A program made the position numbers and the translations under genes. Shown one piece after another: positions 47,504 to 48,705 of a stretch of DNA of 64,000 nucleotides. Within the stretch, counting starts at the first letter, position 1. The number at the start of each line of letters is the position of its first letter. The stretch comes from Ectothiorhodospiraceae bacterium 2226 (lineage in GTDB: Bacteria > Pseudomonadota > Gammaproteobacteria > GCA-013348725), in the NCBI GenBank assembly GCA_013348725.1, contig CP054689.1, positions 1,600,501 through 1,664,500 on the forward strand. The letters are read 5' to 3'. Below the pieces are notes generated by a model, which was given only the letters and a program-made list of their open reading frames with translations, made no database searches and was not told the DNA's origin.

Positions 47504-47529
47504 CTCCCTCCCCCGCGCCAGCGGGGGAG
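47504..47529 (+). repeat. Left half of a GC-rich inverted repeat split by the IS110 element
   Basis: CTCCCTCCCCCGCG followed by CCAGCGGGGGAG (47504-47529). Joined to GGCTGGGGAGGGGGCCG on the far side of the IS (from about 48646), it rebuilds the repeat seen intact at 63626-63660 and, with small changes, at 63518-63560. Confidence 0.8.
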
Positions 47530-47540
47530 CAACTGTGTAG

Positions 47541-48488
47541 TCAAGGCCCGCCATCGACGACTCTCCAAGGCGTCTGCGTGCGCACCATGACGTTGATGAT
47601 GGTCAGCAGTTTACGCATGCAGGCGACCAGCGCGACCTTGGGCCTCTTTCCAGCGGCAACGAGCCGTTGATAGAAGGTGCGGATGATGGGGTTGCAGCGC
47701 ACGGCGGTCACCGTGGCCATGTAAAGCGCAGAGCGCACGGCGGCCCGTCCGCCCCAGATGGTGCGTCGCCCGCGCAGGGTGCCGCTGTCGCGGTTCAGGG
47801 GGGCTACGCCCACCAGTGCCGCGATCTGGCGCCGGTTCAGGCGCCCGAGCTCGGGCAGCGCCGACACGAGGGTGATCGAGCACACCTTGCCGATGCCTGG
47901 GACGCTTTGGAGCAGATCGTCGAGCTGGCGCCACAGGGGGCTCTCGCGCAGCAGGGCCCGCAGCCGATGGTCGGTTTCGCGCAGTTGCTGCTCGAGGTGG
48001 CGAATAAGCGCCTTGATGCTGGGACGCACGCTCTTAGGTGCGCCGCTTAAGCGGTTCTTCTCCATCGCCAGCATTTGCACCAACTGGGCCCGTCGTGCCC
48101 GTAGGGCTTCGAGCTCCTGGGCCTGCGCATCGCGCAGAGGGCGCACCTCGGGGCGCACCGCTTCGGCGAAGCGCGCCAGGACGTATGCATCTAGCCGATC
48201 GGTTTTGGCGAGGCGCCCGAGCGACTTGGCGAAGTCCCGTACCTGGCGCGGATTGACCACCACCACGGGCAAGCCGGCAGCGGCGAGTCCCGAGACGGCC
48301 GCGGTCTCAAGCCCGCCTGTGGCTTCCAGAACGATCAAGGCGGGGCTCAGATCGCCAAGCTGCGCCACGAGTTGCGCCACACCTGCCTCATCGTTAGGTA
48401 CTTGCCAAGCCCGCTCCTGCGATTGCAGCGCCACGTCTAACCACTGTTTGGAGACGTCAATCCCCACAAACGGTCTGTTATCGCTCAT
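47541..48488 (-). CDS. IS110 family transposase (DEDD/serine recombinase)
   Basis: 315 residues. The RuvC-like domain supplies D11 ([14 protein letters not shown]), E55 (IVLEATGG), D97 and D100 ([14 protein letters not shown]). The C-terminal Transposase_20 domain has [20 protein letters not shown] and a candidate nucleophile serine, S235, in [19 protein letters not shown]. Length and spacing correspond closely to IS621-type recombinases, so the protein appears intact and potentially active. These enzymes use a bridge RNA made from the element's non-coding end to choose donor and target sites. Confidence 0.95.
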
Positions 48489-48645
48489 CCACCAACTCCC
48501 AGCCTTGTCATGCGGGCTCGAGGCCCCGGCAACTGTACGGGTTCTTGGATAGAATGGCGCGGCGCTCCTAGCTCCCCCACGGACTCGTACCGTCCAAGGG
48601 TTTTGGACGATCTACCGCGCCGTGGGACAAGTTGTAACAGACAAG
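48489..48645 (-). ncRNA. Candidate IS110 bridge RNA region (long end)
   Basis: 157 non-coding bases between the transposase start and the element edge. Read 5' to 3' on the minus strand, they hold a hairpin (GTCCAA/TTGGAC, 48592-48608). Next comes GTGGGGGAG (complement of 48572-48580), which could pair with the flanking target CTCCCCCGC with one G-U. Then ACAGTTG (48530-48536), identical to the element's short end, is followed by GACAAG (near 48505-48510), complementary to the CTTGTC at the other end. Target guide first and donor guides second is the order in IS621 bridge RNA. Transcript ends are not known. Confidence 0.6.
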
Positions 48646-48705
48646 GGCTGGGGAGGGGGCCGCGGCGCAGCCGCGGGGGGCGGTCGTTGCTCGCGCGCCG
48701 GGCGC

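Follow-up and report, generated by a model that had tools for sequence, protein, structure and literature searches.

The window, i.e., the whole 64,000-nucleotide stretch of DNA that was analysed, carries an IS110-type element at 47530–48645 on the minus strand, which lies between two convergent genes encoding a metallo-beta-lactamase-fold protein and an H+-pyrophosphatase; a gap between convergent genes is the usual kind of REP location. The plus-strand flank ...GCGGGGGAG stops at 47529, and the other flank, GGCTGGGGAG, begins at 48646. When joined, they give GCGGGGGAGGGCTGGGGAG, which is arranged like the intact copy of the same repeat at 63626–63661, CTCCCTCCCCCGCGTCAGTGGGGGAGGGCTGGGGAG, identified by sequence comparison and match scoring. 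AG, which is CT on the transposase strand, is found at both junctions (47528–47529 at the right junction and 48644–48645 at the left one), and the element is therefore 1116 bp long with one copy of the CT core included. Read on the minus strand, the left junction is CCCCTCCCCAGCC-CT-TGTCTGTTACAAC, the right junction is CTTGACTACACAGTTG-CT-CCCCCGCTGGCGCGGGGGAG, and the joined flanks are CCCCAGCC-CT-CCCCCGC. Comparison of junctions and ends with those of relatives placed the left target half CCCAGCC at 48646–48652, the right target half CCCCCGC at 47521–47527, the left donor ACAGTTG (the right end of the element) at 47530–47536, and the right donor TGTCTGT (the left end) at 48637–48643, all on the minus strand. 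The ends and the CT core are common to the element and about 60 relatives. A preceding sequence-only reading had proposed that the flanks rejoin into the repeat and that the element spans about 47530–48645; both proposals are borne out by the junctions and the core. The intact repeat copy to which it pointed is present, but it ends at 63661 and not at 63660. A listing of genomic copies, also suggested there, showed that the element is present in a single copy in the 2,956,257-bp (2.96-Mb) genome.

The intact open reading frame at 47541–48488 (minus strand) encodes a recombinase of 315 aa, in which PF01548 and PF02371 (RuvC/Tnp) were both found above the cut-off, in agreement with the earlier assignment to the IS110 family. 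The residues D11, E55, D97, D100 (DEDD), and S235 are located in the expected motifs, and the protein has the RuvC-like DEDD domain and the Tnp domain with a conserved serine typical of IS110-type elements; the DEDD motif and the serine have been described for the IS621 recombinase (PMC11208158). The best solved relatives by sequence are ISCro4 (PDB 9t56; 131 bits in phmmer) and IS621 (125 bits). Both are distant, and the likeness to ISCro4 concerns the protein only. The identity of the relatives retrieved does not exceed 64% in the collection searched, and most of them belong to Nitrospirota, Chloroflexota, Myxococcota, Gemmatimonadota, and similar groups. Within the class, three further genomes out of 94 encode related proteins, with 50–57% identity. 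A non-coding region of 157 nt precedes the recombinase gene, as in IS110-type elements, and the stretch from the stop codon to the right end is just 11 nt long. An IS1111-type element, in which the guide RNA follows the recombinase gene and subterminal inverted repeats of 11–13 bp are typical, would contain identical protein domains, and ISfinder combines IS1111 with IS110 in one family; however, the 11-nt downstream end holds no non-coding region of the IS1111 kind and already contradicts this anatomy. In addition, the RNA precedes the gene and has the bottom-strand guide ahead of the other one, in keeping with the description of IS110-type elements (PMC11187229), which makes the IS1111 assignment extremely improbable.

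The left ends of 65 distinct elements (64 relatives and the element of the window) align well. RNAalifold, applied to 48 aligned left ends, indicated a target-loop stem, a hairpin within this stem, and a donor-loop stem. On the minus strand of the window, the 5′ arm of the target-loop stem (helix 1 of the consensus structure) corresponds to 48608–48622 and its 3′ arm to 48556–48568, while the conserved hairpin GGAC..GUCC (helix 2) occupies 48581–48595, between the target guides. Two-sided changes were observed at 17 of the 30 base pairs, 97% of the cells of this 48-sequence alignment are paired, and neither shuffles nor slid registers came near the pairing support of the real alignment. A covariance model trained on 43 relatives, with the window's element left out, detected the bridge RNA at 48496–48625 on the minus strand with a score of 81 bits (E 1.2e-15) in the 64 kb, the next match having 12.8 bits. 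This run of a covariance model over the long end had been proposed as a check, and its result, together with the conserved structure, upholds the claim of a bridge RNA in which the target loop precedes the donor loop, the order characteristic of IS110-type elements. As a single sequence, the left end has a minimum-energy fold that is not significant when compared with shuffles (z 0.29).

All four segments that had been picked out in the non-coding end were found on the minus strand in the order given: AACCCT (48597–48602), GTGGGGGAG (48572–48580), ACAGTTG, and GACAAG. Alignment and covariation define the left target guide as AAACCCT (48597–48603, minus strand; target CAGCCCT) and, with match scoring, the right target guide as GUGGGGGAG (48572–48580, minus strand; target CTCCCCCGC, one G-U pair). 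Each guide position was compared with the flank of the same element across about 60 relatives. Matches at the left guide positions −1 to −5 were found in 58, 55, 52, 44, and 41 of 62–65 elements (z from 7.6 to 10.7), and at the right guide positions +1 to +5 in 57, 55, 48, 52, and 50 of 60–61 elements (z from 8 to 12); overall, the target-guide covariation has a z of 7–12, and slid registers of the same elements gave no comparable guide–target signal. Cognate guides and targets match on average at 8.2 of 10 non-core positions versus 3.2 for non-cognate pairs, 1.6% of which score 8 or more. Copies of multi-copy relatives share only the guide-matching bases; unrelated targets with no guide match, named earlier as contrary evidence, were not encountered among them. 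In six Syntrophorhabdus copies, the right flanks have CTGGAAC in common and differ beyond it, and the guide GTTCCAG of these copies matches the shared sequence.

The element itself has a typical match for the family, 8/10, composed of 3/5 on the left, with mismatches at −3 and −5, and 5/5 on the right, where pairing of the guide goes on at +6 (wobble) and +7. The claimed pairing of the right guide with its target thus holds, and covariation supports it as well. That the RNA is programmed to the repeat also stands by the 8/10 match, but the left pairing is imperfect. The left guide had been suggested only tentatively, as AACCCTT within a hairpin at 48592–48608. Alignment with the 64 relatives confirmed the guide but not its setting: the conserved stem-loop is the one at 48581–48595, located between the guides and not around the left one. 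Since the left guide position covaries with the targets across relatives, this guide is established at the level of homology and covariation. The right guide is largely a run of G, and the fold of the single sequence does not surpass that of its shuffles, so it could be supposed that the guide matches arose by chance in GC-rich, repeat-rich sequence. This supposition is hardly credible in view of the highly significant match to a model trained without the element and of the position-specific covariation across relatives; moreover, of the 6436 CT sites that were scanned in the window, only 9 reach 8/10 or more.

The donor guides are located further along the RNA. The left donor guide ACAGUUG (48530–48536, minus strand) is identical to the left donor, i.e., to the short end of the element, and co-changes with it in relatives; the right donor guide GACAAG (48504–48509, minus strand) pairs with CTTGTC of the long end. 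Both correspondences had been noticed from the sequence, and comparison of donors shows that the guides follow the ends in relatives (ACGGTTG/ACGGTTG, ACAGTCG/ACAGTCG, ACGGCTG/ACGGCTG, CTAG/CTAG, and CTTA/TAAG). The family has CTTGTAT as its right donor, for which the guide is discontiguous (AU-N-CAAG), and a right-donor guide of this discontiguous kind has been described for IS621 (PMC11208158). The element of the window, with the right donor CTTGTC and a contiguous GACAAG guide, is the sole such case among 65. A promoter-like sequence across the predicted circle junction was detected in 72 of 72 elements. In relatives, TAT of the right donor also starts the −10 box of this junction promoter, which is most often TTGACA-17-TATCTT. 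Judging by promoter comparison, the −10 box of the window's element appears to have moved, giving TTGACT-18-TACAAC: the predicted −35 box TTGACT at 47539–47544 contains the recombinase stop codon, and the predicted −10 box TACAAC is at 48631–48636 (both on the minus strand), with 18-nt spacing in the circle.

Another distinctive feature, found only in the window's element when aligned with relatives, is a 3-nt insertion (UCC) before the left guide. The inserted bases can pair with GGA to form the hairpin GUCCAAAACCCUUGGAC (48592–48608, minus strand) of the single-sequence fold, which exists because of the insertion, would enclose the left guide, and excludes the conserved hairpin at 48581–48595. 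Such a competing hairpin could weaken targeting, or it could be opened by the protein. It may be imagined that the element was correctly built and is now weak or inactive, its left guide hidden by the insertion and its donor and −10 box having drifted; the single copy, the uniqueness of the insertion and hairpin, and a donor and promoter unlike those of all relatives are in line with this. However, the reading frame and catalytic motifs are intact, and IS elements are commonly present in a single copy. The donor has changed along with the donor guide, and the −35 box along with the −10 box, which suggests that selection kept them working. Such decay therefore seems unlikely.

We consider the locus to be a complete IS110-type (IS621-like) bridge-RNA element, the target guides of which choose the foot of a REP/BIME-like palindrome (probability about 0.93). 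The protein family, the ends, the core, the conserved RNA structure, and the guide–target and guide–donor covariation speak for this at the level of sequence. Expression, circle formation, and catalysis would proceed by analogy with IS621. The excised circle would have its right end joined to the left end, with the predicted junction TTGACTACACAGTTG-CT-TGTCTGTTACAAC, and the promoter created across it would allow the bridge RNA to be made. In the first loop, one guide would pair with the bottom strand to the left of the target CT and the other with the top strand to the right, so that the foot of the palindrome would be selected; the second loop would apply the same pairing scheme to the element's own joined ends, and the RuvC-Tnp recombinase would exchange strands at both CT cores. 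The two mismatches among five left-guide positions count against this explanation, as does the possibility that the left guide is hidden by the competing hairpin. As the element is single copy, its own target choice is not checkable on a second insertion.

The element is a well-behaved new example of a known RNA-guided recombination system that was discovered recently, not a new system. It resembles IS621 of the IS110 family from E. coli (PMC11208160, PMC11208158) in its recombinase domains with DEDD and serine motifs, the upstream bridge RNA with a target loop and then a donor loop, the CT core, the REP target, and the promoter formed at the circle junction, which is predicted for the window's element. 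The differences include the distant protein, a right target guide of greater effective length (at least 5 non-core positions), the contiguous right-donor pairing, and the three bases inserted ahead of the left guide. A non-coding region upstream of tnp is likewise present in ISEc21 and in the other seekRNA-bearing IS110-type elements, whose RNA contains a stretch complementary to each strand of the target, arranged in the IS110 order (PMC11187229); this likeness is one of general layout, and these elements differ in target and are distant in sequence. ISPsy8, ISPa11, ISPpu9, ISPpu10, ISRm19, and ISRm22 also insert in REP palindromes (PMC1525189), but of different REP families, and ISPa11 is of the IS1111 type with the RNA downstream (PMC11187229). 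The element is an unusually legible natural bridge-RNA system, and its relatives in the collection have a protein identity of no more than 64% and come mostly from other phyla. Its interest lies in the variant features, of which those of the donor and left guide add to the design rules of bridge recombinases, and in the sX15 lead given below; otherwise it is ordinary in kind and now well documented.

The target repeat is REP/BIME-like and consists of palindromes partly clustered in arrays. The foot of the palindrome at 47504–47529 was cut by the insertion, as judged from the flanks, the repeat copies, and a palindrome test. A closer intact copy, CGCGGCTGCGCCGCGGCCCCCTCCCCAGCCCTCCCCCGC, is located around C1:1251380–1251440, and a near copy around 1251640–1251690; the nearly full flanking repeat is intact twice near 1251380–1251690, with the 15-mer CCAGCCCTCCCCCGC at both 1251405 and 1251660. 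At several genomic sites the match to the guides equals or exceeds that of the occupied site, e.g., CTAACCCTCCCCCGC, present three times near 2593695–2594340, and the earlier suggestion that other copies of the repeat are potential landing sites is therefore reasonable. The genomic site CTAACC-CT-CCCCCGC is a better match than the natural target CCAGCC-CT-CCCCCGC. Tandem arrays of REP/BIME-like palindromes were observed at C1:2593500–2594700, at 1251200–1251900, and at 63440–63661 of the window, with unit pairs every 100–200 bases. Some array copies end in GGGGGAATTGAAAC, which resembles the end of a CRISPR repeat but sits in a REP array. The Y1_Tnp family (PF01797) includes REP-associated transposases. 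Three matches to it were found in the genome, at C1:1804597, 1237170, and 2156143, one of them with an internal stop. These loci are candidate sources of the enzymes responsible for the REP repeats, and a REP-core octamer lies close to just one of them.

Of 53 distinct sites occupied by relatives, 10 are at the foot of a palindrome versus 2.2% of control CT sites, with a threshold chosen after seeing the data. These relatives belong to several phyla and are spread over the recombinase tree. The tree did not support a single origin of palindrome targeting: ten changes are required, no fewer than with shuffled labels. Elements of four phyla (L062, L064, L072, L046, and L024) occupy REP-like sites of very similar sequence, CCCTCACCC..CC-CT-CTCCC, and their guides match these sites. 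Apparently, these insertions, scattered as they are on the recombinase tree, represent convergent programming, and the relatives show repeated reprogramming onto REP-like palindromes. REP targeting by IS elements has long been known (PMC1525189), and for IS621 it was reported by Choi et al. in 2003 (as cited in PMC11187229).

The Rfam family sX15 (RF02234) matches the opposite strand of the bridge RNA at 48484–48631 of the window (plus strand) over the full model length with 25.8 bits, and the gathering threshold of 55 bits is not reached in this element. Antisense matches below the threshold were also found in several relatives. In a family of the same class, RF02234 occurs above the threshold, often in several copies per genome; a bridge-RNA match lies opposite sX15 in all 30 loci tested there, a recombinase match was found at 24 of them, and in 22 it directly adjoins the RNA. 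Given these opposite-strand matches, sX15 as filed is, by sequence comparison, the antisense of IS110 bridge RNAs at all 30 loci tested. In 22 of 24 loci, a −10-like TANNNT occupies the positions −12 to −7 relative to the 5′ end of sX15; this motif was not seen for the antisense match in the window's element. A full sigma-70 antisense promoter was rejected, because the scores (6.95) are not clearly higher than those of shuffles (6.58) and only the −10 position is conserved. It is conceivable, if somewhat doubtful, that in one branch of IS110 elements the whole bridge RNA is covered by an antisense RNA; sX15 may be a genuine regulator, or the matter may be one of strand only. Such an RNA, if transcribed, could modulate the supply of guides and with it transposition, and the link, if confirmed, would add a regulatory layer to bridge-RNA elements and change the meaning of the Rfam family. 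This lead may outweigh the element itself in worth. The sX15 RNA was reportedly described in a 2012 NAR paper.

A second, different IS110-type element is present in the same genome at C1:446475–449726. A bridge RNA of its own scores 25 bits with the model; the LDG is ACAGTATC, and the left guide TTTGCGCCCT matches the flank TATTGCGCCCT. Three more PF02371 recombinase genes with equal scores are located at C1:1780228, 1784551, and 2938384; two of them are in shorter frames (186 aa), while the third encodes 348 aa.
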